Shown here in pieces: positions 1,454-62,081 of a stretch of DNA of 64,000 nucleotides. This DNA comes from Bacteroides sp. (GTDB lineage Bacteria > Bacteroidota > Bacteroidia > Bacteroidales > Muribaculaceae): positions 1-64,000 of the forward strand of contig JAAVDM010000058.1 of assembly GCA_014801815.1 (NCBI GenBank), read 5' to 3'. Position 1 is the stretch's first letter. Every line of letters starts with the position of its first letter. The position numbers were made by a program, and so were the translations under genes. The notes beneath the pieces were generated by a model. That model did not search any database. It was not told where the DNA came from and was given only the letters and a program-made list of their open reading frames with translations.

Positions 1454-1756
1454 AAGTAGATGTTAAAAGTTAATTTATTATACAGTTTCTACGTGAGTTT
1501 GTATGGTAAAAGCATAAAACTTACGGTTATTGAAGGATAAATCCAAAGCCTTAATGCTCAAGAAGCGAAATTCCGGATGGAATTGGCTCATATCTTAGTC
1601 AATTCGTAGTTGAAACGCTTGAGTCTAGGATTAAGCATTTTGAGGAATTGGTCTAATGATTAACTTTAGAAATCATATAGCTTAATTTTATTGATTGACT
1701 TAATTTTATATCGTATAATTTAGATAATTAATGTTTGTTTTGATAGCTACTCTTAA

Positions 1757-1978
1757 TAAGAGATTTGGATAGTTCCTAAATATCTGATTAGAGGATATTT
1801 ATACTAACTTAATTATAGCGCTTTACTAAACAATCTGTAAGTTTATCTTATATTTATAATGTCTTTCGTTGGAGAAAAATAATTTTTTAGTTTGATTATT
1901 TGGATGTTTCGGTTTTTAATCATACATTTGCACTTAATTAAGTATCTCTTATTAAGAGATTTGGATAGTTCCTAAATA
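1757..1978 (+). repeat. 26-bp direct repeat flanking a 170-bp non-coding spacer
   Basis: Identical 26-base copies lie at 1757-1782 and 1953-1978 (both contain AGATTTGGATAGTTCC). Each copy is preceded by a palindromic CTCTTA-(A/T)-TAAGAG core. The repeat sits just downstream of the convergent integrase gene, as expected for duplicated attachment sites or for a locally duplicated leader. The enclosed spacer is AT-rich and holds no gene. The repeat is read directly; its role as an attachment site is inference. Confidence 0.65.
1923..1960 (+). promoter_or_regulatory. Bacteroidota -7 box with downstream palindrome
   Basis: TACATTTG at 1923-1930 matches the -7 consensus TAnnTTTG. Ten bases later comes AGTATCTCT-TATTA-AGAGAT (1941-1960), an inverted repeat with a 5-base spacer. 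The same arrangement occurs at 48345-48386 before the NusG-fusion regulator. Here the promoter points at the 3' end of the convergent integrase, so its original gene appears to be missing. Confidence 0.45.
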
Positions 1979-2030: not shown

Positions 2031-3233
2031 TTAGAGACTGTTAATTATTAGATTGTTGGCTTTGTCAACTGTAGAATTGTCGATGCTGTCAAGATAAATT
2101 TGAGTTGTGGTCTCATTATCATGTCCCATACCTTTACTTATTACAGATAAGGGTATACCTTTTGCTTTAGCTATAGAGGCCCAACTATGTCGAGCGACGT
2201 AAAGAGTTAGGGGTATTGTAATACCAAGCATATTAGCTATTATTTTTAGGTTATGGTTAATATTGTAACCAACGTTACGATAAACATACCATTCATTAGT
2301 GCTGGGTTTACAGATGATTGGAAGTAAATAGTCACTTTGATTTTTGGGATATTTATTAAGAATAAGTTGCATTTCCTTGGTCCATTCGATAGTTAGCTGT
2401 TGACCTGTCTTACGACGGCGATATGTTATATAGGCATTCTTGAGGTCTGTTTTTTTCAAAAAGGCCATATCTATAAAACTCATGCCTCGCAAATAAAAAC
2501 TCATTATGAACATATCACGGGCAAAGTCTAAGACAGGATTTAGCGATAGGTCAAGACTTTTTATTCTTTTTATAACATGTAAAGGTAGAGCTCGTTTAAC
2601 AGTTTTATCTACTCCTGTATAGACGTGTCTGAAAGGATTATGATTTTCGATAATTCCATCATCTACCGCACGGTTATAAGTAGCCCGTAGAATACGGGTA
2701 TAGAATGAGATAGTATTAGGAGTGAGTCCTCGTTTACGCTGCCATGCTTCATAATCTTCCATTATTTTCGATGTAAGACAATCAAGCATAATGTCCTCAC
2801 CCTGTCTAAATATTTTGAAACTGTTTAGGGTAGACTTATAGGTCTCGGGAGTCCTGAATTTACCATTTTGTTTGAGTTTTATAATGATACTTTCCATAAA
2901 GTTGAAAAGTGAATAGTCATGTAGGCATCGATTAAACTCATCAATTATATCATCAGCTGTATATGGCAAGCCATCAGCATCAAATTTACGATGAATCTTT
3001 GTCAAACGCTCTATGTCCCAGCGTATCCGCTCACGAATTGATATAATCAACGACTTGCGTTCATTCTCTCCTACAGCAATCACTGTAGAACATTTTTCAT
3101 TCCATTCTGATGGAAAAATTTTATACTTCGTCAGAAGTTGTCGTGGTTTTCTTTCATGGATAATTTGATAATATACGGTTCCTTCATTACCAATGATAGT
3201 CGAGGGACGAAATTTTACTTTTATCGAGGCCAT
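2031..3233 (-). CDS. Tyrosine-recombinase integrase
   Basis: Site-specific tyrosine recombinase of the kind that moves Bacteroidales integrative elements or inverts DNA segments. An N-terminal arm-binding region (about residues 1-95) is followed by a SAM-like core-binding domain (about 105-205) and a catalytic domain (215-400). Catalytic residues are visible: Arg249 (LRGMSF), Lys275 (RRRKTG), Tyr345 and Arg348 in the YVAR box where His is more usual, His371 (MGHD) and the nucleophile Tyr380 (TTTQIY). The length of 400 aa is normal for the family and the gene looks intact. The adjacent direct repeat at 1757-1978 is a candidate substrate. Confidence 0.93.
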   Translation of the reverse strand: MASIKVKFRPSTIIGNEGTVYYQIIHERKPRQLLTKYKIFPSEWNEKCSTVIAVGENERKSLIISIRERIRWDIERLTKIHRKFDADGLPYTADDIIDEFNRCLHDYSLFNFMESIIIKLKQNGKFRTPETYKSTLNSFKIFRQGEDIMLDCLTSKIMEDYEAWQRKRGLTPNTISFYTRILRATYNRAVDDGIIENHNPFRHVYTGVDKTVKRALPLHVIKRIKSLDLSLNPVLDFARDMFIMSFYLRGMSFIDMAFLKKTDLKNAYITYRRRKTGQQLTIEWTKEMQLILNKYPKNQSDYLLPIICKPSTNEWYVYRNVGYNINHNLKIIANMLGITIPLTLYVARHSWASIAKAKGIPLSVISKGMGHDNETTTQIYLDSIDNSTVDKANNLIINSL

Positions 3234-47687: not shown

Positions 47688-47800
47688 TGTCTCGACGGTG
47701 TGCTGACATAGGATTGACAGAATAAGTCCGGTACTACCTCAGCACACCTTATTTATTATAAGACCTAACTCGGCATAAACGCCGAAGTGGTAAGCAAACT

Positions 47801-47836
47801 CGGCGGCATGTATCATTTCTATGACACATGTCGCCG
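47801..47836 (+). terminator. Terminator hairpin after hppA
   Basis: The arms CGGCGGCATGT and ACATGTCGCCG pair over 11 bases with one G-T wobble and are followed by TTCTTATATTTT. Confidence 0.6.
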
Positions 47837-47952
47837 TTCTTATATTTTATCTGCAACATAATCGGCGATAGCGACATTCCGAGAATAATCTTCGTTATCA
47901 CTAACTTCTTCAGTAGATACGATAGCAACTCCTAAAAAAGTCAACCTCATTA

Positions 47953-48103
47953 TTGTAGCGCCACAAAAATTATTCTACCTTTGTCCCTCTCGCTCTCATT
48001 TCACTCTATTCTCCTCCTGACCGTGCCTCCTCTTGACCCTCTCGATTCTGTGTACGGGTCTCAGGTCGTTTACATAAGGCCGGAAGAGGACTTCCGACCT
48101 TAT
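47953..48103 (+). ncRNA. Candidate small transcript: promoter plus terminator hairpin
   Basis: The -33-like TTG (47953-47955) and -7 TACCTTTG (47976-47983) predict a start near 47990. A strong hairpin ATAAGG-C-CGGAAG / CTTCCG-A-CCTTAT (48074-48103), followed by TTATCTT, would end the transcript after about 115 nt. No convincing reading frame lies between. The transcribed strand is remarkably pyrimidine-rich. It could be a small RNA or an attenuated leader for the glycan regulator downstream. The remaining gap to 48416 contains only AT-rich sequence and a second promoter. Confidence 0.45.
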
Positions 48104-48344
48104 TTATCTTCTAATTACCTACCCTGTTTATATCCTCAGTACAAGCGTTATATCCTAAATTCCCATCCATATCTCTTCCTTAGAGAGTGTGATGAGAAGT
48201 TAAGCTCTGCCTTTCAACCCTTTATCTTTCCCTATTTTAGCCATTTTTAAAACATTTTACAAAAAATACCTGTTTCAGACCCCCTTTTTACCTGTAAAAT
48301 CACTTTTCTAAATCTGAGATAGTGCTAATTCAAAATTTTATTTG

Positions 48345-48386
48345 TAACTTTGCATTTGCAATAAGTATCTCTAAGGAAGAGATACT
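48345..48386 (+). promoter_or_regulatory. Promoter and palindrome of the glycan-locus regulator
   Basis: The -7 box TAACTTTG (48345-48352) is followed after 11 bases by the perfect inverted repeat AGTATCTCT-AAGGA-AGAGATACT (48364-48386), which would lie at the transcription start. No good -33 box is seen. The same promoter-plus-palindrome arrangement is at 1923-1960. Confidence 0.55.
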
Positions 48387-48416
48387 AACCGCGAGTCCTT
48401 TCCCTTTCCCCAAAAG

Positions 48417-50009
48417 GTGGCTCTCTCATCTGAAATATCCTCTCAAAACCCCTGTTTTCGGCCCCAACATACCGACTCAGGGGGTCGAGAGTCATTATCT
48501 GCCATTTCCTCAGAGTTACCCGACGACGATTCGCCTAATATCACTGCGCATCAGCCAATTACTCTTTCTGATGCCATTTCTTTCTTCCGCCTTAAAGTAG
48601 CTGCTACACCTAACCCCTCAACTGCCGAAAGCCGACGCAAAGCTCTCAACACCTTTCTCGCCTTTACCGGCCGCGATATTCTCCCCTTTTCGGACCTTTC
48701 TGAACCTTTTCTCAACGAATGGATAGTATGGCTACTCCAGAACGGCTACTCGCAGAAAACGGCTGCTTTCTATATCAAACAAATTGGTACGCTGTACAAC
48801 CAGGCTGTTGCAGAAGGTCTGGCACCTCCCTCTGATATTATAAATAAGGCGCGTCAACGTCTGCTCGGTATCCCCGTGGAAACCTTCACACAAATCGACA
48901 CTCACCTCATCGACAATCTCCTAAGCTTTTTTCGTGCCCGTTCCACTCTCCGCTCCACACGCCGTATGGCAGCCGACATCGTTGCTTTTGCCATTCTCAA
49001 CGGCGGCATGAACTTCGACGAAATACTAACCTATCGCAAAAACGCTTATCGAGGTGATGATGAAGAACTTCAGCTTATAGTCGCTACTTACGTCCGGCCG
49101 CGAAACAAATACCTCTTCCCACTAAATCAGGCAAAACGCACTCCCGGACAACTCCGCAAAGACCTAAGCAGCCTTTTCTATATTGCACTTTCACCTTACG
49201 GTATACCGCTCTCTCCCAACGAAACCAATACAGCTTTTGACCTATGGTGTCTCGTCGCACTACGCTGCAATTTTACACCTTCCAAGCTTCTTGGTCTCAC
49301 CGGCGGACGTCTGCCATCATTCAATCCGGCACTGAGTTTCCTGACACCCGTACCGGCCACACAACAGGAAACTGATGATATTCGCCGCAACGTCCGTCAG
49401 ACACTCACGGCAAATCCACTCAACTGGTACGCTATGCAGTTCCGGCCACGTGTCAGCTACGAACAGATAATCAAAGCTATGGAAGCCTGTGCGGGCGAAG
49501 TCCGGTTTGCCGAACTGTTCTATCCCAGCGAAGAAATACGCCGCCGTACCCGCAACCGTCTCCGTAAGGAGCGCAAACCCGTAATTCCGGGACTTCTCTT
49601 CTTTCGCAGTCATGCCACTGACATTACCCCGATGTTCCGCCATATCGGCAACCTCGCATGGTGCTACCGTCGTACCGGCGACCGCACAAGTACCTATGCT
49701 GTGATACCACCCCACGAGATGCTACGCTATCAGACTGCCATTGGCCAATTCACCCCCGATATGGAAGTTCTCCCTGCCGGTACACTTTCTATCAAAGAAA
49801 ATGATCATGTCATCATGCTAACTGGCAGTCTCATAGGTCGGCCGGCTACCGTCACTCAAATCAAGACCACTTCTACGGGACGCATCATTTATCGCCTTTC
49901 CTTTATCGGCGACAACAAAGTAGAATGGGCTGTCAACGCCGACTCGCGCACAGTCCGCCCAATCACTCCCACCCAATACACCCACCTCACTGACTCCTCC
50001 TCAGACTAA
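48417..50009 (+). CDS. Recombinase-like/UpxY (NusG-type) antiterminator fusion
   Basis: A 530-aa protein starting at GTG. Residues 48-150 look like a SAM-like core-binding domain of tyrosine recombinases (FLAFTGRDILPFSDLSEPFLNEWI, YSQKTAAFYIKQIGTLYNQA) and 160-308 like the recombinase catalytic fold. The catalytic Arg is replaced (LNGGMNFDEIL versus LRGMSFIDM in the integrase at 2031), and no HxxR, GH or nucleophile Tyr can be found. Residues 336-440 are a NusG N-terminal domain (NWYAMQFRPR, KPVIPGLLFFRS) and 450-515 a KOW-type domain (HVIMLTGSLIGRPATV). UpxY proteins drive read-through of Bacteroides capsule operons; this one heads a glycan operon. The 5' codons 1-47 are low-complexity, so the exact start is uncertain. 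Confidence 0.82.
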   Translation: MALSSEISSQNPCFRPQHTDSGGRESLSAISSELPDDDSPNITAHQPITLSDAISFFRLKVAATPNPSTAESRRKALNTFLAFTGRDILPFSDLSEPFLNEWIVWLLQNGYSQKTAAFYIKQIGTLYNQAVAEGLAPPSDIINKARQRLLGIPVETFTQIDTHLIDNLLSFFRARSTLRSTRRMAADIVAFAILNGGMNFDEILTYRKNAYRGDDEELQLIVATYVRPRNKYLFPLNQAKRTPGQLRKDLSSLFYIALSPYGIPLSPNETNTAFDLWCLVALRCNFTPSKLLGLTGGRLPSFNPALSFLTPVPATQQETDDIRRNVRQTLTANPLNWYAMQFRPRVSYEQIIKAMEACAGEVRFAELFYPSEEIRRRTRNRLRKERKPVIPGLLFFRSHATDITPMFRHIGNLAWCYRRTGDRTSTYAVIPPHEMLRYQTAIGQFTPDMEVLPAGTLSIKENDHVIMLTGSLIGRPATVTQIKTTSTGRIIYRLSFIGDNKVEWAVNADSRTVRPITPTQYTHLTDSSSD

Positions 50010-50149
50010 CCTACCTATCCCCGTTCCCATCCCTTCCAAGCAAAGCTGCCTTCGTCGGTGTTCCATACTTAAAGCCGACTAAAACCCTATTCTCTTCCTC
50101 ACGTAAAGCTATCCCCGCCGAGGTGCTACCTCGAATACCGGCCTCTCCT

Positions 50150-50992
50150 ATGCTCTCACTCTTACCTGACATCACCCAAGTCAACTTTTGCAATCCTGAC
50201 GATACAGAAGGGTTCGCCGCCTTAATTCTCGCCGCTTACAATACTTCCTCCATTTCTCAAATCTCCTCCATACGTAGGCTCGCCAAGACTTGGATCACAG
50301 AGACAGGCTCTAACCTTCCCGCCTACACACCAGGCGATGCCTTGACTATCATCAGTGAATACGATCTTATCTACCGTATAGCCTACCGTACTCCTACCAT
50401 CGAAGCCTACATCAACAAATACATCATCAAGGCCTTCCAAGCCTCCATACATAACGATAACACCGTAAACTACTACCAACTCTACCGCACCATATCGCAG
50501 CAAATCTCCCAACATAACCAAACCTTTCTCGCACCCTCTTTCCTCCAATGGCACAGCCAATGTACTGACCGCTGGCACAAACAATTCCGTTACGGCCGTA
50601 CCCTCACACCGCTCACTCCTTCCGACATCCTGAACCGCGTCTCTATCCTCCTTGATGCAGACCTTTGGCCTTACGAGACATCTAACCAGCTCCGTTTCAA
50701 ACAAAAGCTCTTCGACCGCCACTCCCACTACCTCACCACCCTCCCCTCACTACCGACCTCTCCATCTACAGTAGATGCATCCTCCGATATAAACCCTCTC
50801 CCTCTACCCCTTCTCTCCGCCCTCAACCAATTCCTCACCTCCTCACTACCCTACCTCACTCCCGAAGCCTACTACGCTTACCGCTTCTCCCTACACCATA
50901 CACTCCTCGCCCACCCTCACCTCAACACCTACCGCCGCACCGCCCTCCTCCTCAACCCGCCGGTCGCTCCCTCAGCCCGCACCGCCTCCTGA
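50150..50992 (+). CDS. Unrecognised protein in upxZ position
   Basis: 280 aa from the ATG at 50150 (MLSLLPDITQVNF); an in-frame GTG at 50123 would add 9 residues. Helical, soluble, rich in Tyr, Thr, Leu and Pro (for example YDLIYRIAYRTPTIEAYINKYIIKAFQ, QQISQHNQTFL). The C-terminal third has a Pro/Ser linker and ends with ALLLNPPVAPSARTAS. The coding strand is extremely pyrimidine-rich, as in the preceding gene, suggesting joint history. In Bacteroides capsule loci this place is held by upxZ, an inhibitor of UpxY; I see no sequence evidence of that family. Confidence 0.65.
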   Translation: MLSLLPDITQVNFCNPDDTEGFAALILAAYNTSSISQISSIRRLAKTWITETGSNLPAYTPGDALTIISEYDLIYRIAYRTPTIEAYINKYIIKAFQASIHNDNTVNYYQLYRTISQQISQHNQTFLAPSFLQWHSQCTDRWHKQFRYGRTLTPLTPSDILNRVSILLDADLWPYETSNQLRFKQKLFDRHSHYLTTLPSLPTSPSTVDASSDINPLPLPLLSALNQFLTSSLPYLTPEAYYAYRFSLHHTLLAHPHLNTYRRTALLLNPPVAPSARTAS

Positions 50993-51112
50993 CCCGACCT
51001 AAACTATTACGCACTGATAGTAAAAAACCGAAAGCTTTTTTATATCTACTTCTCTCCCTACTGACTTAGCCCTTTCATATCACCCACTGAATAAAACATA
51101 ACTATTATAATT

Positions 51113-52087
51113 ATGAATTTTGCATTGATTGGCGCAGCAGGCTATATAGCCCCACGCCACATTAAAGCGATTGCTGATACAGGTAATAATCTTGTGGTGG
51201 CATACGACCGGTTTGACAGTGTAGGCCGCCTTGACAGCAGTTTTCCCGAAGCATCGTTTTTTACCGAACAGGAGCAGTTTGACAGATTTTGTCATAACCA
51301 GATGAATTCTGATCAACCTCTGCACTGGTTGTCTATATGTACCCCCAACTACACTCATGCTCCTTTCATTGAAACCGGTCTGAGATTAGGTACAGATGTG
51401 ATCTGCGAGAAACCTATTGTCCTTCATGCTCGTACTATAGACGAACTCATGAAAGTCGAGGAAGAAACCGGACATAAAGCCTATAACATTCTCCAGCTTC
51501 GTCTCCATAAAGCTATAGCCGATCTTAAGAAAAAGATTGATAACGGTCCCAAAGACAAAATATATGATGTAGATCTCACTTATATAACTTCACGTGGCAA
51601 ATGGTACTATGCAAGTTGGAAGGGTGATGTTCACAAAAGTGGTGGTGTCGCTACAAACATAGGTGTACACTTCTATGATATGCTCCAGTGGGTATTTGGT
51701 CCGGTAAAAAAGAATGTTGTCAATGTGATGAGCTTCGATCGGGTAGCCGGTTATCTTGAACTTGAAAAAGCACGTGTACGCTACTTCCTAAGTATAAATG
51801 CTGAGAATCTTCCCTCCAACGCTGTACAAGGAGAGAAGCGTACATATCGAACATTGAATATCGATGGAGAAGAATTTGAATTCAGCCAGGGCTTTACTGA
51901 ACTTCACACTGAAAGTTACCGACATATTCTCAACGGCGACGGTTTCCGTATAAGTGAAGCTCGTCCATGTATTGAGATTGTAGAGCAGATACGTACATCT
52001 ACTCCTATAGGTCTTGTCGGAGAATATCATCCGCTTGCCAAACTTCCTCTGTCAACTCATCCTTTCGGTTGGGACGAAAAGAGATAA
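51113..52087 (+). CDS. wbpB: UDP-sugar oxidase, Gfo/Idh/MocA family (WlbA/WbpB-like)
   Basis: A 324-aa NAD-dependent enzyme that oxidises the 3-position of UDP-GlcNAc-uronate. The N-terminal Rossmann motif is MNFALIGAAGYIAPRHIKAI and the catalytic EKP is in DVICEKPIVL. HKSGGVATNIGVHFYDMLQWVFG is the typical substrate-domain segment of WlbA/WbpB. It is the first gene of a compact four-gene set (51113-55117) that together makes UDP-2,3-diacetamido-2,3-dideoxy-uronate. Confidence 0.88.
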   Translation: MNFALIGAAGYIAPRHIKAIADTGNNLVVAYDRFDSVGRLDSSFPEASFFTEQEQFDRFCHNQMNSDQPLHWLSICTPNYTHAPFIETGLRLGTDVICEKPIVLHARTIDELMKVEEETGHKAYNILQLRLHKAIADLKKKIDNGPKDKIYDVDLTYITSRGKWYYASWKGDVHKSGGVATNIGVHFYDMLQWVFGPVKKNVVNVMSFDRVAGYLELEKARVRYFLSINAENLPSNAVQGEKRTYRTLNIDGEEFEFSQGFTELHTESYRHILNGDGFRISEARPCIEIVEQIRTSTPIGLVGEYHPLAKLPLSTHPFGWDEKR

Positions 52088-52104
52088 TTCTAACTGCCCT
52101 CATC

Positions 52105-53238
52105 ATGAATAAAAAAATACAGATGGTCGATCTTCACGGCCAATATATGAAGATTAAGCCGGAAGTCGATAAAGGTATTCAGGAAGTAATCGACACATGT
52201 GCTTTCATCAATGGACCACAGGTAAAGGAATTTGCTGAAGAACTAAAGGATTATTCCGGCGCCAAGCACGTTATAACATGTGCCAACGGTACAGATGCCC
52301 TCCAGATAGCTCTTATGGCGTTAGGTCTGCAGCGGGGCGATGAAGTCATAGTGCCAGCTTTCACATACGTAGCTTCAGCCGAAGTAATCGGTCTACTCGG
52401 TCTTACTCCGGTTATGGTAGATGTTGATCCACGTACTTTCAATGTTACTGCCGATAATCTCAGAAAAGCCATATCACCACGTACAAAAGCAATAATACCT
52501 GTACATCTGTTCGGTCAGTCATGCGATATGGAACCTATAATGACGCTGGCTAAAGAACATAACCTCTACGTGATTGAGGATAATGCTCAGGCTATAGGTT
52601 CTGTATATACATTTTCCGATGGTCGTCAACGCCATACCGGCACAATCGGTACAATCGGTTGTACTTCTTTCTTTCCGTCAAAGAATTTAGGATGTTATGG
52701 CGATGGAGGAGCAATCTTCACCGATGATGACAGACTGGCAGAAAAATTACACATGATTGCCAATCACGGACAGAAAATAAAATATCATCACTCTGTTATC
52801 GGTTGCAACTCTCGTCTCGACACTATTCAGGCCGTTGTGCTCAAAGCCAAACTTCCTTATCTTGACGAATACTGTGCTGCCCGTAAAGCGGCAGCCGACT
52901 ATTATACTGCTCATCTGAAAGACGTAAAAGGTATTATAGTCCCTGAAGAACTTCCTGCTTCCACCCACGTCTACCATCAGTATACTCTTCAGGTTCCTGA
53001 CGGTAAACGTGACAGCTTGAAAGATTTTCTTACCACAAAAGGAATACCGGCTATGGTATATTATCCTCTACCTCTACAACAGCAGGAAGCTTTCAAGGAT
53101 ATAACTCGCGCAGCTGAATCACTGGAGATATCTCAGCAGCTCGCCGATTCCGTACTCTCGCTTCCCATTCATACTGAACTGACCCACGAGGAGCAGAACA
53201 TTATTATCGCTGCAATTAAGGAATTCTTCAATAACTAA
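52105..53238 (+). CDS. wbpE: DegT/DnrJ/EryC1 aminotransferase (WbpE-like)
   Basis: From the ATG at 52105 (MNKKIQMVDLHGQYMKIK), 377 aa; the upstream in-frame Met at 52069 overlaps the previous gene and is less likely. PLP-dependent aminotransferase of sugar nucleotides: the PLP site is at EDNAQAIG and the Schiff-base Lys in SFFPSKNLGCYGDGGAI. In pathway context it aminates the 3-keto sugar made by the preceding oxidase, with glutamate as donor. Confidence 0.9.
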   Translation: MNKKIQMVDLHGQYMKIKPEVDKGIQEVIDTCAFINGPQVKEFAEELKDYSGAKHVITCANGTDALQIALMALGLQRGDEVIVPAFTYVASAEVIGLLGLTPVMVDVDPRTFNVTADNLRKAISPRTKAIIPVHLFGQSCDMEPIMTLAKEHNLYVIEDNAQAIGSVYTFSDGRQRHTGTIGTIGCTSFFPSKNLGCYGDGGAIFTDDDRLAEKLHMIANHGQKIKYHHSVIGCNSRLDTIQAVVLKAKLPYLDEYCAARKAAADYYTAHLKDVKGIIVPEELPASTHVYHQYTLQVPDGKRDSLKDFLTTKGIPAMVYYPLPLQQQEAFKDITRAAESLEISQQLADSVLSLPIHTELTHEEQNIIIAAIKEFFNN

Positions 53239-53246
53239 ATCCACTT

Positions 53247-53822
53247 ATGTCAGAATATTTTGCACATCCTACTGCCACTATAGACGAAGGTGCGGTAATA
53301 GGCGACGGAGTGAAAATATGGCATTACAGCCATATCATGGCTGGTGCGGTTTTAGGTGCCAAGTGCAACATCGGTCAGAACGTAGTTGTGTCACCCGGTG
53401 TCACTTTGGGGCATAATGTAAAGGTACAAAATAATGTATCTATCTATACCGGAGTGATTTGTGAAGACGATGTTTTCCTCGGCCCTTCTTGTGTGTTTAC
53501 TAATGTCACTAACCCGCGTAGTGCTGTCAACCGTCATTCACAATACGCAAAGACCATAGTAGGTCGGGGTGCCACTATCGGAGCAAACTCCACTATAGTC
53601 TGCGGACATAATATAGGACCTTTTGCCTTCATCGGAGCCGGTGCTGTAGTCACTAAAACCGTGCCTCCATACGCTCTTGTTGTAGGTAATCCTGCCCGTC
53701 AGATAGGTTGGATGAGTGAATATGGCCATCGTCTTGACTTCAACGATGAAGGTATAGCTGAATGTCCGGAGTCGCATCAGAAGTATCAACTGAAAGAAAA
53801 TAAAGTAACAAGAATAAGTTAA
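53247..53822 (+). CDS. wbpD: N-acetyltransferase, left-handed beta-helix (WbpD/WlbB-like)
   Basis: A 191-aa trimeric acetyltransferase with the hexapeptide-repeat beta-helix (ATIDEGAVIGDGVKIWHYSHIMAGAVLGAKCNIGQNVVVSPGVTLG), the conserved VTNPRSAVNRHSQY insertion and GHNIGPFAFIGAGAVVTKTVPPYALVVGNPARQIGW. It acetylates the 3-amino group of the sugar. Its start is 9 bases after the aminotransferase stop and its stop overlaps the next start. Confidence 0.9.
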   Translation: MSEYFAHPTATIDEGAVIGDGVKIWHYSHIMAGAVLGAKCNIGQNVVVSPGVTLGHNVKVQNNVSIYTGVICEDDVFLGPSCVFTNVTNPRSAVNRHSQYAKTIVGRGATIGANSTIVCGHNIGPFAFIGAGAVVTKTVPPYALVVGNPARQIGWMSEYGHRLDFNDEGIAECPESHQKYQLKENKVTRIS

Positions 53823-55117
53823 TGATGATTTACGATAAACTTCTTAAAAAAGAGGCCAAACTCGCAGTGGTAGGTCTCGGTTATGTAGGGTTACCCCTTG
53901 CATTGGAGTTCGCCAAGAAGATTTCAGTTATTGGCTTCGACATCAACGAGGAGAGACTTGCCAAAATGCGTGATGGTATTGATCCCTCACAAGAGCTTGA
54001 CCATTCAGCTTTTGAAAATGTTGATATCGAGTTTACTTCTTCGCTTGACAAGCTGCGTGAGGCTTCTTTCTTTATTGTAGCCGTCCCTACTCCTATTGAC
54101 TCCCACAATCAGCCCGATCTTACTCCTGTACTTGGTGCTTCGCGTTCAGTTGGTAAATGCCTGAAGAAGGGTGACTACGTTGTATTTGAGTCTACCGTTT
54201 ATCCCGGCTGTACCGAAGAGGACTGTGTACCCATTCTTGAAGAGATATCAGGACTAAAATTCGGTACTGATTTCAAGGTAGGCTATTCTCCCGAACGAAT
54301 CAATCCGGGTGAGAAAGTACATACCCTCCCCAATACAATCAAGATTGTCAGCGGTTGCGACCCTGAATCTCTCGAACAGATTGCCAAAGTCTACGAGCTT
54401 GTTGTTAAACCCGGTGTGCATCGTGCCCCTAATATCAAAGTAGCCGAGGCTGCAAAGATTATCGAAAATACACAGCGTGATGTCAATATCGCTCTTATGA
54501 ACGAACTTTCGATTATCTTCTCACGCATCGGTATCAATACTTACGATGTACTTGAAGCTGCTGGTACAAAATGGAACTTCCTCAAATTCTATCCTGGCCT
54601 CGTAGGCGGTCACTGTATCGGTGTTGACCCTTACTATCTGGTCTACAAAGCTAACGAACTCAAATATCATAGCCAGATAATCTCTGCCGGTCGTTTCATC
54701 AATGATACTATGGGTGGCTATATAGCCAAGAAGCTTGTAAAGAAACTTATAGGAATGGGTAAAGCTATCTTGGGTGCTAAGATTCTGGTCATGGGCCTTA
54801 CCTTCAAAGAGAACGTAGCCGACATTCGCAATACAAAAGTACTTGACATCATAAATGAGCTCAAAGACTTTGGTGCCGATGTAGATGTTGTTGATCCCTA
54901 CGCTGACCCAGAGGACGTTCGCCGTATGTACGGCATTCACCTCATAGAAAAACCGCGCGGCAACTATGACGCTATTATCGTAGCTGTCGGTCACGATGCA
55001 TATAAAGACCTTACCGAGGAATACTTCGATAACCTTACCTACGACAACGCCGTCCTCGTCGACATCAAAGGCCTTTACCGCGACCGCATTCACAAACTCA
55101 AATACTGGAGCTTATAA
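53822..55117 (+). CDS. wbpA: UDP-N-acetylglucosamine 6-dehydrogenase (WbpA-like)
   Basis: A 431-aa NAD-dependent dehydrogenase oxidising the C6 of UDP-GlcNAc to the uronate. It shows the Rossmann motif VVGLGYVGLPLALEF, the Pro-rich VPTPID, FESTVYPGCTEE, and the catalytic Cys region GGHCIGVDPYYL, with the second nucleotide domain from about 320 (VMGLTFKENVADIRNTK). It supplies the first step of the wbp pathway although it is the last of the four genes. It uses a start codon overlapping the preceding stop. Confidence 0.92.
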   Translation: MMIYDKLLKKEAKLAVVGLGYVGLPLALEFAKKISVIGFDINEERLAKMRDGIDPSQELDHSAFENVDIEFTSSLDKLREASFFIVAVPTPIDSHNQPDLTPVLGASRSVGKCLKKGDYVVFESTVYPGCTEEDCVPILEEISGLKFGTDFKVGYSPERINPGEKVHTLPNTIKIVSGCDPESLEQIAKVYELVVKPGVHRAPNIKVAEAAKIIENTQRDVNIALMNELSIIFSRIGINTYDVLEAAGTKWNFLKFYPGLVGGHCIGVDPYYLVYKANELKYHSQIISAGRFINDTMGGYIAKKLVKKLIGMGKAILGAKILVMGLTFKENVADIRNTKVLDIINELKDFGADVDVVDPYADPEDVRRMYGIHLIEKPRGNYDAIIVAVGHDAYKDLTEEYFDNLTYDNAVLVDIKGLYRDRIHKLKYWSL

Positions 55118-55121
55118 TTAA

Positions 55122-55177
55122 AATTAATAAAATTGATATGGTTATATAATTATATAACCATATCAATTTTATTAATT
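55122..55177. terminator. 56-bp perfect palindrome between sugar-nucleotide and AT-rich blocks
   Basis: 28-base arms without mismatch or loop, almost entirely A/T. It starts 5 bases after the dehydrogenase stop. As it interrupts what should be one operon, it may be a check-point that the antiterminator must overcome. Confidence 0.7.
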
Positions 55178-55194
55178 ATAGTTTTTATTTACTT

Positions 55195-56457
55195 GTGATA
55201 TACTTCTTAAAGAAATACAATTTTAAACATATCCTAACTCTCTTAAGTGGAAACTTAGGAGCACAAGGGATAACTTTTATTGCTGGGCTTCTCTTAGCAA
55301 GGCTATATTCTCCCGATGATTTTGGCCTCCTTGGTGTTTTTTTAGCTATTTCAAATATTCTTACTCCTATTTCTTGTTTAGGATATGAAGCTGCAATAAT
55401 AATTTCAAAGGATATAAAAGAAGCGTTCAAAGTAAGTATGCTTTGTATAGTCATATCAATTTCTTTTGCTTTATTATTGTATGTACCAATATTTTTCTGT
55501 CAACAACAGATAATTAAATGGTTTAATTGTAATGAATTATATCCTTTTATATATCTTATTCCACTATCAGTATTATTAGGAGGTTTATTCAATACCTTAA
55601 ACTATTTTAATACTAAAATAAAAGAATATAAAGATATTGCAGTGTCTAATATACTTAAGAGTTTTTTTTGTGCAATAGTACAGATAGTAGGATCATTTTT
55701 TAGAAATGGACCAAGTATGTTAATAGTCGGCCAAGCAACTATGAATATATTTGGAAATATTAGATTATTAAAAAATTTTCTTCGATATAAATCTAAAATT
55801 AAGATTAGAAATATTATTACTGTAAGTAAAAGATTCAGTAAATTTCCAAAATTCTATTGTTTAGGTGTATTATCAAATAATATTTCTTTAAATATTACTA
55901 ATATACTTATAAATAAACTTTTTGTAGCTTCAACTGTGGGATTTTATTCCTACGCTTATAAATATGTTGGGTTTCCAATCTCTTTGATTGCCACATCTAC
56001 AGGTCAAATTTACTATCAAGAATTATCTGAAGCAAAGATTGATAGTAAAAATATAAATAAAATTTTTAAAGATACACTAATTAAATTATTAATATTAGGA
56101 TTTCCAATTTTTTTAACTCTATACTTCATTATAAAACCTGGCTTTATATTACTATTCGGTGAGAAATGGAGTATGGCAGGAGAAATTGGACAGATTCTCA
56201 TACCATTATTTTTTATACGTTTTATTACCTCTCCTCTTAGTATGACTTTATTAGTATTTGAGAAACAGAAAATTCTTTTATTTCTACAGATATTATTAAT
56301 GAATTTAACCATTATTCCTTATATTATTACATATATCCTTAAAGGTTCTCTAATAATGTATTTATACAATCTAGTATATATCTTATTAGGCTATTATATT
56401 TTATATTTAGGTATAATCTACTATATCATTCATAAATATTCAAAAGTAGACGATTAA
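55195..56457 (+). CDS. Lipid-linked oligosaccharide flippase, Wzx-type
   Basis: A 420-aa polytopic membrane protein with about 12 helices of the MVF/MATE-like polysaccharide transporter family. The N-terminal LSGNLGAQGITFIAGLLLARLYSPDDFGLLG is diagnostic, with many Lys/Arg in loops. It flips undecaprenyl-linked repeat units to the periplasm. Starts at GTG. From here GC content falls sharply relative to the wbp genes, marking a laterally exchanged serotype-like block. Confidence 0.88.
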   Translation: MIYFLKKYNFKHILTLLSGNLGAQGITFIAGLLLARLYSPDDFGLLGVFLAISNILTPISCLGYEAAIIISKDIKEAFKVSMLCIVISISFALLLYVPIFFCQQQIIKWFNCNELYPFIYLIPLSVLLGGLFNTLNYFNTKIKEYKDIAVSNILKSFFCAIVQIVGSFFRNGPSMLIVGQATMNIFGNIRLLKNFLRYKSKIKIRNIITVSKRFSKFPKFYCLGVLSNNISLNITNILINKLFVASTVGFYSYAYKYVGFPISLIATSTGQIYYQELSEAKIDSKNINKIFKDTLIKLLILGFPIFLTLYFIIKPGFILLFGEKWSMAGEIGQILIPLFFIRFITSPLSMTLLVFEKQKILLFLQILLMNLTIIPYIITYILKGSLIMYLYNLVYILLGYYILYLGIIYYIIHKYSKVDD

Positions 56458-56703
56458 GAATAACTAAAATACTTTACTGACGTTAATTACAGCTAGATAC
56501 TATCTAGATACTTTAAATATAAATATTTTTTAGATACTTACAATTAAATAATTATTTATATTAATTATTAATTTATAATGGATACAAGACTAATTTGTTT
56601 TTTTCTTTTTTATCGTTAATCTTTCATACGTAGGAAAAATAATTATCATTACTAATCCAATTAACGTAAGGTACAATTAGTAGAAAAATCCAATCTTGGT
56701 GAA

Positions 56704-56990
56704 ATGGAAAAACTATGTAAATATTATAATTTAATAGAATCGGTTTTAGAAGATAACTTCACAATTTTTATATCCCGACGGTTCAAAACTATACTTTAGA
56801 ATAACTGATACAGAAAAATATATCCTTTTAACTGTTGAAGTTATAACTACAGAAAATACAAGTATATTATCAAGAAACTTGAAGAATTAGGTTTTAAGAA
56901 AAAAGATGATGATTATCAAACTTAAGAATAAGTTTGAAAAGTAATTCATATATTGTAAAGTTAACAAAGAAAATTTCTTATATTTACAAG
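56704..56990 (+). pseudogene. Decayed small gene between flippase and polymerase
   Basis: Three overlapping frame fragments read continuously if frameshifts are allowed: MEKLCKYYNLIESVLEDN (frame 1), FLYPDGSKLYFRITDTEKY (frame 2), then KKLEELGFKKKDDDYQT (frame 3). Each ends at an early stop. Together they suggest a protein of roughly 90-110 residues. I do not recognise the family. The rest of the 56458-57210 gap is AT-rich and shows no gene. Confidence 0.5.
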
Positions 56991-57210
56991 TTACTATAGG
57001 TAAAATATTTAATAACATTAAGTATATAAACGTATTAATCGATAATTTCAAACCTTACTAATATTAATAATCATTAAACAACAGTTCATATAAAATCAGA
57101 TATTAGAAATAATCAAAAAATAACACTAGATTTAATAGATTCTACAAGAATTTACCCAAAAGAGCTTTTCTGATTTAACATCTCTTTTTAGACTTTTACA
57201 TATAAGCAAA

Positions 57211-58542
57211 ATGAATAGTAGCATTTGGATGATATCTGGAATAACTTTATTAATCTCCTACAAATTATTTTCCAAAGCCGCTGGTACCTTAAATATAAGG
57301 TACTTTAATACTATCACTTATGTATTTTATTATAGTATAATCTTATCAACATTTATTGGCTCAATCCTATGTGCATATGATTTTGGAGAAGATCACTGGA
57401 TATTGAGCAACGCTCATCATGAAGCAAGGATTAAGGCATGGTTAGCAGTATGTTATTCAATGATAGCGATGCCTATAGGTATGATTCTTCTTAATAATCT
57501 TTTTAAGGTTCATCCTAAGAGAGATTTAAAAAGATATATTTCAGAGCAAATTCAATTTCATTTAACCAATCAACATCTTAAAAGTGTATTAGGGTTCTCT
57601 ATATTAATTTCTTGTTGTTGCTTTTTATACATAAAACATTATAGTAGTTCTTGGCCATTATATTCCGCTGTAATAGAGCATGATTTAGTAGCCGCTACGG
57701 AGGGTAGAATCGACGTAAGGCTTAATTTTCAAGGGATAATACATATTAAAAATCTAATTGGATTATACTTAGTTCCCTTATTATCTTTCTTTGCTTATAT
57801 AGTTTCTCAATTTAAACATGGTTGGTTTTATAAATTTTCATTTTACGCAATATTAATTTTTACTCTACTTATTCTTTCTTACGATACTCAAAAAGCTCCT
57901 ATTATTTTTTACTTAATCGGCTTTATTATAATAAGAGTATTGATTAAAGGTGCAATACCTATCAAATATATTATTATTTTCGTCTTAACAGCCTTATTGA
58001 TAATGGCTCTTTTATATACACTATTTAATACTACTACTAATGGTGCACTCGATATAATATTGGACCCTCGATCGGCAATGTGGGGGAGAATGTTTATCTC
58101 AGGTTATGCGGGTGTACCTCTATCTTTTGAATGGTTTCCAAATGTTATAACCCAACCAACTTGGCAAATTGGTTTTCCAGAATTTATATTAAATCTTTTT
58201 GATTTACCAACAACCGAATCTGCACGATTATTAATGCTTAATTTAAATCCAGATGGCAATTTAATATCATCTTATTATATTGCAGAAGCCTGGGCCAATT
58301 ATGGATTAATTGGGGTAATAATTGCACCTTTTATTGTTGGCTTCAATGTGCAATTAATCCAAATTTTTCTATTTAAATCTACTAAAAATCCTTTAACTAT
58401 CGCCTTTTATGCAATAGTTACAACCAAATGGGTAGTAAGTTCAGGATTTGTTAACTTCTTATTTTTTAAATCAATTATTTTTAGTTTTTTAGTATATTAC
58501 TTAGCAAAACTTATTATTTATCGTTTAACAATTAAAATATGA
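57211..58542 (+). CDS. Polysaccharide polymerase, Wzy-like
   Basis: A 443-aa membrane protein with about 10-12 helices and a large periplasmic loop (about 270-365: SAMWGRMFISGYAGVPLSFEWFPNVIT, ESARLLMLN, AEAWANYGLIGVI). This topology and location between flippase and glycosyltransferases fit the O-antigen/capsule polymerase that joins repeat units. Sequence identity in this family is low, so the call rests on topology and context. AT-rich like its neighbours. Confidence 0.78.
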   Translation: MNSSIWMISGITLLISYKLFSKAAGTLNIRYFNTITYVFYYSIILSTFIGSILCAYDFGEDHWILSNAHHEARIKAWLAVCYSMIAMPIGMILLNNLFKVHPKRDLKRYISEQIQFHLTNQHLKSVLGFSILISCCCFLYIKHYSSSWPLYSAVIEHDLVAATEGRIDVRLNFQGIIHIKNLIGLYLVPLLSFFAYIVSQFKHGWFYKFSFYAILIFTLLILSYDTQKAPIIFYLIGFIIIRVLIKGAIPIKYIIIFVLTALLIMALLYTLFNTTTNGALDIILDPRSAMWGRMFISGYAGVPLSFEWFPNVITQPTWQIGFPEFILNLFDLPTTESARLLMLNLNPDGNLISSYYIAEAWANYGLIGVIIAPFIVGFNVQLIQIFLFKSTKNPLTIAFYAIVTTKWVVSSGFVNFLFFKSIIFSFLVYYLAKLIIYRLTIKI

Positions 58543-59606
58543 GAACAATCATTTTAGTAGCATATTATTTTAAACCCCATAAAGGAGTAGGAGTATTAAG
58601 ACCTTCATATTGGTATGACCAATTTAAGAAAGATGGATATAATATCAAAGTATTAACTGCCACCCCTGGAAACAATGATAAGAATGTGATATTTATTAAT
58701 CCTTCCAAGAAAAATCTAATAAAGGATAATAGCTTTTTTTGGGGTAGAAAATGTGCACATTATATTGAACATAATTTAAAATCTGGCAAAAAATATATTA
58801 TTATTATTACTGGTGGACCCTTTCTACAGATTCTTCCTATATTAAGATTAAAGAATAAGTACACAAATGCTTATTGGATAATTGATTATAGAGATCCATT
58901 ATCAGGAAATAGTCGGAATAATTCAGACTCATATATGGCAATAATTAAGCAATATATTAAACAAAAATATGAATATATAATTAATAATATGGCTGATAAA
59001 ATAATTACAGTAAATAAAATATGTAAAGAGCTGCTTCAATGTAAAGATTATAGTAAAGTCCTAATAATAGATAATGGTTACGATGAAAGAGTAATTAATA
59101 ACAATAGTAATAATATTTATAATACAAAAAATATAGTTTATGCGGGGAAATTATATATAAATAATGGATTTAATCAACTAATAAAAGCTCTTTCTACTCT
59201 ACCAGACGATTATAAATTTATATATATAGGTCCTTCAGATATACCCAATTCTTCGAGAGTAAAATCTCTTGGATATCTAGAATATAGTGATACGATAAAA
59301 CATATTGAAACAAGTGAAATAGGAGTAATTCTAACTACTGGTGACCCTTTTGAATCTACCACTAAAGTATTTGATTACTTTGGCACAAAGAAAAAAATAT
59401 TAATTATTACACAGGGTATTAAATTTACTGGCTTCTTAAATGAAATAACAAAAGATAATCCAAATGTTGAATGGGCAAATAATAATATTGAAAATATTCA
59501 AGAAGCTTTAGTAAGATTACAAAGGCCCTATGTAGAATGGAATTATTCAAAATTTTCTAGATATAATGGTTATTTAAATCTTAAGCAGATAATAGAGAAT
59601 TTATGA
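58539..59606 (+). CDS. Glycosyltransferase, GT-B fold
   Basis: A 355-aa protein with a glycosyltransferase-4-like N-terminal half (MRTIILVAYYFKPHKGVGVLRPSYWYDQFKKDGYNIKVLTA) and a C-terminal half with nucleotide-sugar contacts (IVYAGKLYINNGFNQLIKALS, VILTTGDPFESTTKVFDYFGTKKKILII). Overlaps the polymerase and the next transferase by 4 bases each, giving a tight sub-operon. Sugar specificity cannot be read from the sequence. Very AT-rich. Confidence 0.82.
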   Translation: MRTIILVAYYFKPHKGVGVLRPSYWYDQFKKDGYNIKVLTATPGNNDKNVIFINPSKKNLIKDNSFFWGRKCAHYIEHNLKSGKKYIIIITGGPFLQILPILRLKNKYTNAYWIIDYRDPLSGNSRNNSDSYMAIIKQYIKQKYEYIINNMADKIITVNKICKELLQCKDYSKVLIIDNGYDERVINNNSNNIYNTKNIVYAGKLYINNGFNQLIKALSTLPDDYKFIYIGPSDIPNSSRVKSLGYLEYSDTIKHIETSEIGVILTTGDPFESTTKVFDYFGTKKKILIITQGIKFTGFLNEITKDNPNVEWANNNIENIQEALVRLQRPYVEWNYSKFSRYNGYLNLKQIIENL

Positions 59607-60688
59607 AAATATTATTACTATCAGATGTCAATAGTATTCATACTAAACGTTGGGTAAAAGCATTATCTGAAAAAGACCTTGAGATCATATTATTTTCACT
59701 TTCTCCTAATAATAGTGATTTTTATAATAACTTACATAAGGTTAAAATTCTAGAAGGTAAATATGAAGCTAAAAATTCAGTCTTATCAAAACTACGCTAT
59801 CTTAATATTGTTCCACAGCTTAAAAAATTGATAAGACAACTGCAACCTGATATAATACATGCTCATTATGCCAGCAGTTATGGTCTGTTAGGTGCTCTTA
59901 CTAAGACTTCAATTCCTTATATTATCTCAGTATGGGGTAGTGATATATATGATTTTCCTAATATTGTGCCTTTTGGGAAAAATATAATAAGATATAATCT
60001 TAAAAAAGCTGATTATATATTGTCTACAAGCCATGTAATGGTCAACGAAATAAGGAAATATACTGATAAACCTATTAGGGTAACACCTTTTGGGGTAGAT
60101 ACTGAATTGTTTAAGCCCCTTTGTAAAGTTAATACAGACGAATTTATAATTGGTAATGTAAAGACACTACACCCTAAATATGGGATAGATGTACTTATCA
60201 AAGCGAGCGCTATAGTAATAAAAAATAACCCTAATAAGAAAATACGTCTTGAAATATATGGGGAAGGTCCACAAAAAAAGGAGTTGATTCAATTAGTAAA
60301 ATCACTTAGAATCGCTAATAAAGTTAATTTTAGAGGGTTTATATTGAATAATAAACTTCCTGAAGTATATAATTCTTTCTCGGTAGCTGTATCACTTTCT
60401 AATAGCGAAAGTTTCGGTGTTGTAGCAGTAGAGGCTATGGCTTGTGGATGTCCTGTAGTGACATCTGATGCTGATGGATTTACTGAGGTAGTAGAAAATT
60501 GTACAACCGGTTTCATTGTACCTAAAGGAAACCCTGAATCGGCAGCCAAGGCGATTCAGCGTTTTATTGATGCTCCCCTTTTAGGAAAAGCTATGGGGAT
60601 TTCAGGTCGTAAAAGAGTTTTAGACTTATACGATTGGAATATGAATGTGGAGACTATGTTAAATATTTATAATGAGATTCTAAACTAA
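59603..60688 (+). CDS. Glycosyltransferase family 4
   Basis: A 361-aa retaining GT-B enzyme. N-terminal: HTKRWVKALSEKDLEI and PDIIHAHYASSYGLLGAL. C-terminal donor site: GNVKTLHPKYGIDVLIKA, IYGEGPQKKEL and the E-x7-E motif ESFGVVAVEAMACGCPVV. It transfers a nucleotide-activated sugar during repeat-unit assembly at the cytoplasmic membrane. The 178 bases after it (60689-60866) hold no recognisable gene. Confidence 0.92.
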   Translation: MKILLLSDVNSIHTKRWVKALSEKDLEIILFSLSPNNSDFYNNLHKVKILEGKYEAKNSVLSKLRYLNIVPQLKKLIRQLQPDIIHAHYASSYGLLGALTKTSIPYIISVWGSDIYDFPNIVPFGKNIIRYNLKKADYILSTSHVMVNEIRKYTDKPIRVTPFGVDTELFKPLCKVNTDEFIIGNVKTLHPKYGIDVLIKASAIVIKNNPNKKIRLEIYGEGPQKKELIQLVKSLRIANKVNFRGFILNNKLPEVYNSFSVAVSLSNSESFGVVAVEAMACGCPVVTSDADGFTEVVENCTTGFIVPKGNPESAAKAIQRFIDAPLLGKAMGISGRKRVLDLYDWNMNVETMLNIYNEILN

Positions 60689-60866
60689 CTACTTATAATA
60701 TCAAAAGACACAAATGAGATAATTTTGAACCAGTGATTAATAATATTACAGTAGTTTTATAAAAGGATCCTATTTTTACGAGGGTAAAGGAATTTCATAA
60801 ATATATCCTTCTTAAACAAGTTTTTAGAGATTATCAATAACATTACATGGAATTTCAGGTGAAAAT

Positions 60867-62081
60867 ATGAATATTCTAATTATTAACCAGTATGCTGGAA
60901 ATCGTATATTAGGTATGGTATATCGTCATTATTACCTTGCCAAGGAATGGGTTAAGAGTGGTAATAAGGTGATGATAATAGGTGGATCCTTTTCCCATCT
61001 ACGAAGTCAACAGCCGATAGCTAATACAGAAATTATCGATGGCATAGAGTTTCGTTGGATTCCAGTGTCTACATATAAGGGTAGTGGATTTGGTCGAGTA
61101 AAGGCCATGTTTGATTTTGTCAGTAAACTGTGGTTCAATTATAAAAAGTATTTGGGTAATTTCACTCCTGATGTAGTCATCTCTTCATCTACTTATAATT
61201 TTGAGATTTTTCCAGCAAAACGTATTGCCCAACATTATGGAGCTAAACTAATATATGAAGTTAGAGATATATGGCCTCTCACTCCGATGGAATTAGGAGG
61301 ATATTCTAAACATCATCCTTTTATTGTGGTTATGCAAGCTGCAGAAGATTATTGCTACCGACATGCTAATAAAGTAGTTTCACTACTCCCTAATGCACTT
61401 GAGCACATGAAGGAACGTGGGATGGCAGAGAATAAATTTATATACATACCAAATGGATTTGATCCTGAGGAATGGAAAGACATTCCTCAGGTTCCACCTA
61501 AAGTTGCTAGAGTTATCGGAGGTTTAAAAAAAGATGGAAAGTTTGTAATAATGTATACTGGCGGTCATGCAATATCTAACGCCCTTGACTTTTTTCTCGA
61601 TGCCATGAAATCATTACAGGACAGCAACATTGTGGCTGTATTAATTGGTAAAGGACAAGAAAAACTACGACTTATTGAACGTGTGAAAAACGAAAATATA
61701 GATAATGTAATTTTTTTAGATTCTGTATCGAAGAAGGAAATCCCAGCAGTTCTAAGTCTTGCTGACAGCCTTTACATAGGGTGGAAAAAAAATCCTTTGT
61801 ACAAATATGGTATCAGTCCTAATAAATTATTTGACTATATGATGTCAGGTAAACCTATCATTCATTCTGTAGCCGCTCCAAATGATTGGGTTAAAGATGG
61901 AAAATGTGGAATTTCGGTAGAAGCTGAGAATGCTGATTTGCTTACTAAGGCAATTAAAGAAATTGCACAGTTATCTCCTGACACACTTGATAAGATGGGA
62001 AAAAATGGCAGGCAGTTTTGTCAAAGTAAGTTTAATTATAGTTTTTTAGCTGATAAATTTATTCAGGCGATTGGTAAATAG
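60867..62081 (+). CDS. Glycosyltransferase family 4, WbuB-like
   Basis: A 404-aa GT4 enzyme with the WbuB-type pattern: MVYRHYYLAKEWVKSGNKVMIIGGSFSHLRS, a conserved EVRDIWPLTPMELGG and a donor site KNPLYKYGISPNKLFDYMMSGKPII. WbuB-like enzymes add N-acetylfucosamine-type sugars, so an aminosugar donor is plausible. The composition is intermediate between the AT-rich block and the flanking chromosome. Confidence 0.9.
   Translation: MNILIINQYAGNRILGMVYRHYYLAKEWVKSGNKVMIIGGSFSHLRSQQPIANTEIIDGIEFRWIPVSTYKGSGFGRVKAMFDFVSKLWFNYKKYLGNFTPDVVISSSTYNFEIFPAKRIAQHYGAKLIYEVRDIWPLTPMELGGYSKHHPFIVVMQAAEDYCYRHANKVVSLLPNALEHMKERGMAENKFIYIPNGFDPEEWKDIPQVPPKVARVIGGLKKDGKFVIMYTGGHAISNALDFFLDAMKSLQDSNIVAVLIGKGQEKLRLIERVKNENIDNVIFLDSVSKKEIPAVLSLADSLYIGWKKNPLYKYGISPNKLFDYMMSGKPIIHSVAAPNDWVKDGKCGISVEAENADLLTKAIKEIAQLSPDTLDKMGKNGRQFCQSKFNYSFLADKFIQAIGK

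Follow-up and report, generated by a model that had tools for sequence, protein, structure and literature searches.

Bacteria of the family considered here are gut bacteria whose surface sugars face the host and phage, and what confines each UpxY-type antiterminator to its own capsule operon is, to our knowledge, an open question. UpxY proteins are described as keeping transcription of their own operon from ending prematurely within its leader (PMC7819879, PMC7315117), and the arrangement of an invertible promoter followed by UpxY and UpxZ is a known one (PMC12632263). Among comparable factors, LoaP is reported to bind an RNA hairpin in the leader, which may serve its recruitment (PMC12691694), and RfaH to bind a sequence of the non-template DNA strand (PMC12691694, PMC5995543). 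A fusion of upxY to part of wecA has been reported (PMC8748976), which is a different fusion from the one presented below, and TnsF is described as acting in transposition and as carrying zinc fingers and a partial catalytic domain (PMC10293859). In a full-text literature search on UpxY, NusG paralogues, Muribaculaceae capsule loci and inactive tyrosine recombinases, with most subscription papers and all preprints outside its cover, the present fusion was undescribed among the matches listed, and the words fusion, fused, integrase and recombinase are absent from the NusG-family papers PMC7819879 and PMC7593976. Within that cover, no description was found of the combination of this fusion with a flippable promoter and a shared leader hairpin; new here are the repeat-enclosed promoter, the covarying leader hairpin and, as a plausible source of the fused domain, an intact recombinase beside stand-alone upxY.

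The window, i.e. the whole stretch of 64,000 nucleotides that was analysed, harbours a single frame joining a recombinase-like part to a NusG/UpxY part, as the initial annotation had read it:

48417..50009, plus strand: fusion gene, 530 aa, pseudo tyrosine recombinase followed by NGN and a KOW-like region (ORF, Pfam, NCBIfam, hhalign)
48603..49418, plus strand: pseudo-recombinase region, residues ~63-334, core-binding and degenerate catalytic domain (hhalign, Phage_int_SAM_5, catalytic columns)
49422..49898, plus strand: UpxY-like NGN and KOW-like region, residues ~336-494 (NF033644 and PF02357 matches)

The frame begins with a GTG at 48417 and its stop codon ends at 50009; the next in-frame ATG, GTG or TTG is met only from residue 154 on, and the N-terminal peptide resembles by eye those of loci L077, L087 and L088 from the corresponding start. 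Phage_int_SAM_5 occupies residues 66-137 (E 5.9e-12, above the Pfam cut-off). On the whole protein, NusG/NGN (PF02357) covers residues 336-436 at E 8e-4 and 20.3 bits, below its cut-off of 22.2, and on the C-terminal piece alone it reaches E 1.2e-4 and 22.9 bits, just over that cut-off; at E 0.01 it is detected in nine of the 15 members of the fusion alignment A1. The UpxY family of NCBIfam (NF033644) matches residues 337-494 at E 3.6e-11 with 43.3 bits against a curated cut-off of 100, so that the window protein misses the family threshold. KOW (PF00467) is recognised by Pfam in two of the 15 members of A1 and not in the window protein, and the PDB profile matches at the KOW of RfaH/NusG/Spt5 are weak. 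As for PDB sequences, the window protein gave chance-level matches only and its C-terminal piece none; the family profile gave 41 matches, among them weak ones to Cre, XerD, NusG and RfaH, the top ones being a chain named RaiA (E 2.5e-5) and YdhK. Neither Pfam nor NCBIfam recognised the stretch between Phage_int_SAM_5 and NGN. Among the parts originally proposed, Phage_int_SAM_5 and NGN/UpxY were thus returned by the domain search, whereas the pseudo-catalytic half was seen only by profile-profile comparison and KOW lacks a Pfam match in the window protein.

That the long frame could stem from a missing stop or an assembly join had been named as a possible refutation, which failed as the frame recurs in dozens of genomes. 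Fused frames extracted from the fetched loci number 63, of which 49 are distinct (differing in the last 200 residues; window included), with an in-frame stop in just one of these, at L034. Since there are 49 distinct frames, one of which (L087) sits on the 3.3-Mb contig of a one-contig genome, the frame is real and an assembly join or missing stop is ruled out. An initial sample of 61 genomes had near-full-length relatives solely in the genus of the window. A family profile search of 297 genomes returned 101 genomes at E up to 1e-15, free recombinases and free UpxY included, and near-full-length matches (at least 400 of 489 profile positions covered, a few containing stop codons) at 68 places in 53 of these 297 family genomes and in 10 of the 30 genera sampled. 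Throughout an order sample of 295 genomes, a match better than E 1e-25 came only from the genome of the window; the sample also lists three more genomes of its family, which did not reach this threshold. The survey of Muribaculaceae suggested at the outset therefore found the same fusion to be recurrent, and the joining of a dead tyrosine-recombinase fold to a UpxY/NusG-type unit is, as far as sequence can tell, real. The 13 named relatives used below are metagenome assemblies labelled Muribaculum, Muribaculaceae and others, some labels being surely wrong; it is from these labels that we take the family to be Muribaculaceae. For comparison, NF033644, a model that picks up NusG as well when run on control genomes, has matches in 233 of 247 family genomes, over cut-off in 152, and its frames over cut-off are mostly shorter than 280 aa among the matches listed. 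A plasmid or phage gene was considered as well and rejected, since matches came from only 4 of 50,697 phage records and 6 of 72,556 plasmid records and each stayed inside the integrase part (residues 34-289).

Regarding the N-terminal part, alignment by hhalign of the fusion profile (A3, window and 13 named relatives) with a profile of 14 intact recombinases (A4) extends over 260 columns to the end of the catalytic domain with probability 99.6 and E 1.3e-24. By this comparison the core-binding and catalytic fold of a tyrosine recombinase is retained in the fusion, and the possible absence of a recombinase fold, another refutation envisaged initially, failed at the level of sequence profiles for residues ~63-334. 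The replacement of LRGMSF by NGGMNF had been correctly spotted, and the HxxR, GH and Tyr nucleophile reported as missing are indeed absent: at the columns of the catalytic Arg, Lys, (His/Tyr)xxArg, GH and nucleophile Tyr, the window has G, gap, N, F, R and S, and these columns are degenerate across 46 fused domains (L034, L036 and L037 left out; the second half of the motif set being cut off in two rows and partly in one). Both catalytic arginines occur together in none of the 46, a gap stands at the column of the beta-hairpin lysine in 45, and the nucleophile column holds a tyrosine once; the tryptophan following HxxR is retained in 44, the other two being gaps. The full catalytic set is present in all 18 intact recombinase rows, two of which are identical. 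Judged by its residues, the fused recombinase domain is catalytically dead.

The loss extends to charge. The median net charge of the recombinase part is +2 in the 46 fusions vs. +16 in the 18 intact rows, with a median of 0 for the core-binding part of the fusions; at ~+8, the window lies on the basic side of the fusions. Of 14 columns holding K/R in at least 80% of intact enzymes, just two have kept K/R in a majority of the fusions. With the catalytic set and most basic residues gone, the fused copy cannot be expected to recombine. Positions W102, Y232, F234, Q238, W277 and A281 are conserved in the fused domain, a conservation that is either structural or marks a patch around K231-Y232-F234-L236-Q238. 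The dN/dS ratio (Nei-Gojobori type) is ~0.14 in the recombinase part for two of seven pairs, the others being dS-saturated, and 0.03 and 0.21 in the NGN part of the same two pairs; by these estimates the recombinase part is kept by selection. At L124:5610-6632, a 341-aa relative seems by eye to consist of the core-binding part and NGN without the pseudo-catalytic part.

Upstream of the fusion gene, a perfect 17-bp inverted repeat encloses 181 nt that include a promoter box:

48170..48186, no strand: left arm of the inverted repeat, TATCTCTTCCTTAGAGA, 17/17 bp complementary to 48368-48384
48345..48352, plus strand: promoter -7 box, TAACTTTG, consensus match within the invertible segment, in ON orientation toward the fusion gene
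48368..48384, no strand: right arm of the inverted repeat, TCTCTAAGGAAGAGATA, pairing with 48170-48186
1750..1958, no strand: second putative invertible segment, arms 1750-1764 and 1944-1958 of 15 bp, 179 nt apart, same site family

The consensus behind the -7 box, TAnnTTTG, is what we take to be the Bacteroides promoter box. The site pattern, TCTCT-five bases-AGAGA, has four matches in the window vs. 0.08 expected, and 17 places in the whole genome vs. seven for the reversed control pattern. A repeat pair of this site family lies upstream of 18 of the 49 distinct fusion frames (17 plus L034), two of the pairs being slightly imperfect and several of the repeat-less loci having little upstream sequence; at these 18 loci, the box points toward the gene in seven, away in ten and is ambiguous in one. 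Between L087 and L088, the segment is identical at 133/180 positions with one copy inverted and at 89/168 as is, the flanks giving 131/144 downstream and 95/138 upstream; as aligned, the promoter segment thus occurs in both orientations in these two relatives. In the genome of the window, contigs C15 and C56 carry the same repeat-flanked switch upstream of stand-alone UpxY, with glycan genes nearby by eye, and contig C34 a repeat pair beside an intact recombinase. On C34 as well, at L066:3156-9235, a repeat pair whose promoter box faces away precedes a row of genes whose products look by eye like a kinase, a von Willebrand-like, a phosphatase-like and a DnaK-like protein; the kinase-like protein matches the PADLOC models mad6 (E 1.7e-15) and PD-T4-6 (E 1.2e-13), which a shared kinase domain may explain, and the row is possibly a phase-variable defence-like operon. 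On contig C28 of this genome, L069:6948-8006 is a 353-aa frame, UpxY-like by the fused-family profile and without Pfam match at E 1e-5, preceded by a repeat-like pair imperfect on one side.

Between the promoter and the coding region, many fusion loci share by eye a hairpin of the general form CCNCTGTC - loop - GACAGNGG followed by GTCGGGAAGAAttGT, which in the window falls within the 5' end of the reading frame:

48444..48502, plus strand: conserved leader hairpin (model R1), helix 48449-48454 / 48478-48483 followed by GGTCGAGAG

R1 is a covariance model built from 16 seeds, the window among them, and scores the window hairpin at E 9.4e-9 over 73 loci and 3.0e-8 in its own genome. On the 16 seeds, the 8-pair helix is paired in 92.9% of cells and seven of the eight pairs have changed on both sides; none of 500 shuffles reached the observed helix measures, and sliding the partner lowers pairing to 50-60%. 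RNAalifold picked the same helix unaided on 22 sequences; the window forms six of the eight pairs, and its positions 48440-48500 fold with an MFE of -21.7 kcal/mol (z -3.5). With E up to 0.012, the model is matched in 22 of the 48 sources of fusion loci, 16 of them seeds and six non-seeds, so that the hairpin is not universal. Among 25 other sources it gave three weak matches (L124 at 0.037, L122 at 1.4 and L128 at 4.4) and no match in front of a UpxY gene. Searching the 297 genomes, with 18 candidates scored per genome under strict filters, returned 48 places at E up to 0.01. The best 17 (E up to 1.6e-5; 11 seeds and six non-seeds, one of which, L088, is near a seed) each stand immediately in front of a fused frame or at its 5' end, and the 18th (E 2.7e-5) lies away from any fusion. 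Of the 31 weaker places, five coincide with a fusion or with a fragment of a fused-type recombinase, and ten others that were readable have neither UpxY nor a fused recombinase within ~1.5 kb. Taken together, the model matches describe a conserved leader structure tied to fusion genes.

In the clade of the window (window, L077, L087 and L088) the reading frame runs through the hairpin, so part of the conservation there could be at protein level; a purely coding origin of the element was rejected, the arm spacing keeping one reading phase in only eight of the 16 seeds. An outer leader helix was likewise rejected as a general feature, being paired in 52.7% of cells, about the slid-control level, though single sequences do fold one. 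A box ACATAY precedes the hairpin in some cases, with 13 of 46 regions having it vs. 3.9 expected, not all at the hairpin, and was set aside. Rfam returned no leader family and two chance-level matches for region 47600-51200, and a terminator scan near the leader gave two sites vs. 2.4 expected, i.e. nothing above chance. A fusion subgroup (L044, L045, L073 and L079) is almost without leader, its promoter box standing ~20 nt before the start.

The fusion gene was placed at the head of a glycan operon by the initial annotation, and the Pfam scan agrees, since it is the first gene before the glycan genes of the window:

50123..50992, plus strand: companion gene, 289 aa, no known family, homologues by blastp after the fusion at L033, L041 (= L111) and L109 (= L076)
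51113..62081, plus strand: glycan operon (Pfam scan)

The operon encodes a Gfo/Idh/MocA oxidoreductase, a DegT aminotransferase, a hexapeptide transferase, a UDP-sugar dehydrogenase, a polysaccharide flippase-type protein, two proteins without Pfam match and two group-1 glycosyltransferases. Elsewhere, 19 of 30 locus rows with enough sequence, four loci being entered twice under two locus ids, have at least one downstream frame with a blastp match to the glycan genes of the window or of C15/C56; in the same blastp comparison nothing downstream of L044, L045 or L113 was recognised as a glycan gene. The companion gene, positioned as upxZ is and with homologues including L033:11191-12072 and L109:1949-2563, has no Pfam model up to E 5 and no NCBIfam model up to E 1, and PADLOC gave nothing at E 0.01 for its product or for the fusion protein. 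Across 50000-50999, where this gene lies, the GC skew is -0.54, a very strong strand bias.

Near the other end of the window stands a gene for an intact enzyme of the same fold:

2031..3233, minus strand: intact tyrosine recombinase with complete catalytic set (Pfam, catalytic columns, inverted repeat beside)

Described initially as an intact integrase, it proved intact and lies on the minus strand; given the 15-bp inverted repeat of the same family (1750-1764/1944-1958) beside its 3' end, its product is probably a promoter invertase rather than a mobile-element integrase. Further intact recombinases of this family are encoded in the same genome at L066 and L123, the latter being contig C22. 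An intact same-strand recombinase adjoins stand-alone upxY, with a repeat pair in the gap, at L114, L115, L117-L121 and L123, and seven other UpxY-like loci (L067-L069 and L130-L133) have no adjoining recombinase. In a quick tree, 46 fused domains lie on one side of a branch and 19 free recombinases, chosen by similarity to the fused domain, on the other (SH-aLRT 99), which is consistent with one fusion event. Most plausibly, the fused part descends from the invertase gene neighbouring upxY in several relatives, though the paired loci were for the most part picked on the ground that both genes were in the match lists.

The reading preferred here, to which we give a probability of roughly 0.6, is that of a phase-variable, operon-specific antiterminator of the UpxY kind loaded at a hairpin, the pseudo-recombinase being a non-catalytic accessory module. 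It draws from the sequence the fusion and its spread, the lost catalytic residues, the repeat-flanked promoter in two orientations, and the covarying hairpin with its link to the fusion. The repeats would let a separate intact recombinase flip the promoter ON or OFF; in the transcript, the leader hairpin would be the likely signal where the fusion protein joins RNA polymerase, and once loaded the protein would let transcription continue into the long glycan operon. Because UpxY prevents leader termination and LoaP binds a leader RNA hairpin, loading at the hairpin of its own switchable transcript is the simplest reading. The recombinase part is more readily seen as an accessory module than as a recombinase because catalysis and most basic residues are lost and yet the domain is under selection; it may contact the leader, the NGN domain or a partner, and could read the leader, hold a protein partner or prevent the factor from acting before it is loaded. 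Antitermination, recruitment at the hairpin, the identity of the recombinase flipping the promoter, the origin from a neighbour and the role of the pseudo-recombinase are thus what we infer. More tentatively, and with the odds against it, a captured switch-locus recombinase might read the leader hairpin (or the switch state) and deliver the antiterminator to RNA polymerase on its own operon; if true, promoter inversion and read-through would be governed by two copies of one ancestral protein, one live and one dead.

Other explanations differ in what they assign to the dead domain or to the hairpin. The locus-specific action put forward at the outset stands as an inference, with the leader hairpin tied to fusion genes; its mechanism, tethering to duplex DNA, is weakened because the median charge falls to +2 vs. 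+16 and only two of 14 conserved basic columns are kept. A dead domain binding a duplex site near the operon, be it the repeat half-sites or the DNA behind RNA polymerase, and so holding the antiterminator there, seems unlikely even though the recombinase fold is retained, recombinase-type sites lie beside the gene at 18 of 49 loci and the domain of the window itself is more basic than the median fusion. A precedent exists in TnsF of Tn6022, an inactive tyrosine-recombinase derivative described as selecting a DNA target (PMC10293859), and UpxY has reportedly been observed bridging to the upstream DNA duplex according to a citing paper (PMC12691694), but most basic residues of intact recombinases are gone and 31 of 49 loci have kept the domain without a detected repeat pair, some of them with short upstream sequence. 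The same two observations, retention where no repeat pair was found and loss of basic residues, make it very unlikely that the pseudo-recombinase acts on the switch, joining an intact invertase in mixed complexes or masking its sites so that an ON locus slows its own OFF switching, despite the tandem of intact recombinase, repeat-flanked promoter and fusion at L106/L084 and the intact recombinases of the family in the same genome (2031-3233, L066 and L123).

At the opposite extreme, the recombinase part may be a harmless leftover with only NGN and the KOW-like region acting. Lost catalysis, fast sequence divergence and the apparent reduction by eye of L124 to a core-binding part before NGN would suit such a remnant; a dN/dS of ~0.14 in two pairs, a near-full-length architecture at 68 places in 10 genera and the conservation of W102, Y232, F234, Q238, W277 and A281 render it improbable. 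As for the hairpin, its position shortly before the start of the frame, or inside the frame in the clade of the window, would also fit a control of translation or RNA stability unrelated to antiterminator loading. This appears quite unlikely, as the hairpin goes with fusion genes and none was detected at the stand-alone UpxY loci retrieved, and as LoaP and RfaH offer reported examples of binding to a leader RNA hairpin and a non-template DNA element, respectively (PMC12691694). The fused proteins form a family with a defined covarying leader element, which makes specificity testable by swapping leaders and domains, and in them the fold of a DNA recombinase would have been recruited into an elongation factor.

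Compared with described systems, the fusion is closest to the UpxY family (NF033644), with which it shares NGN and putatively a KOW-like tail, the place as first gene of a glycan operon and often an invertible promoter (PMC12632263), and from which it differs by ~300 extra N-terminal residues with a pseudo-recombinase fold, a score below cut-off, a distinct hairpin in the leader of many loci and an occurrence in only one family of the order sampled. As second gene of the locus, the companion resembles in position the UpxZ of Bacteroides capsule loci but lacks a Pfam or NCBIfam match. Like LoaP and RfaH, the fusion is a NusG paralogue that would be recruited at a leader element, as is reported or presumed for those two, whereas a recombinase domain, as present in the fusion, is not part of the descriptions of LoaP and RfaH consulted. 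With the promoter invertases of Bacteroidales it has the fold and the neighbouring inverted repeats in common, the fused copy being devoid of the catalytic set and of most basic residues. Finally, TnsF of Tn6022 is likewise an inactive tyrosine-recombinase derivative given a new task, which in its case is described as a role in transposition and involves zinc fingers (PMC10293859), whereas the task of the fused domain would lie in the transcription of a surface glycan operon.
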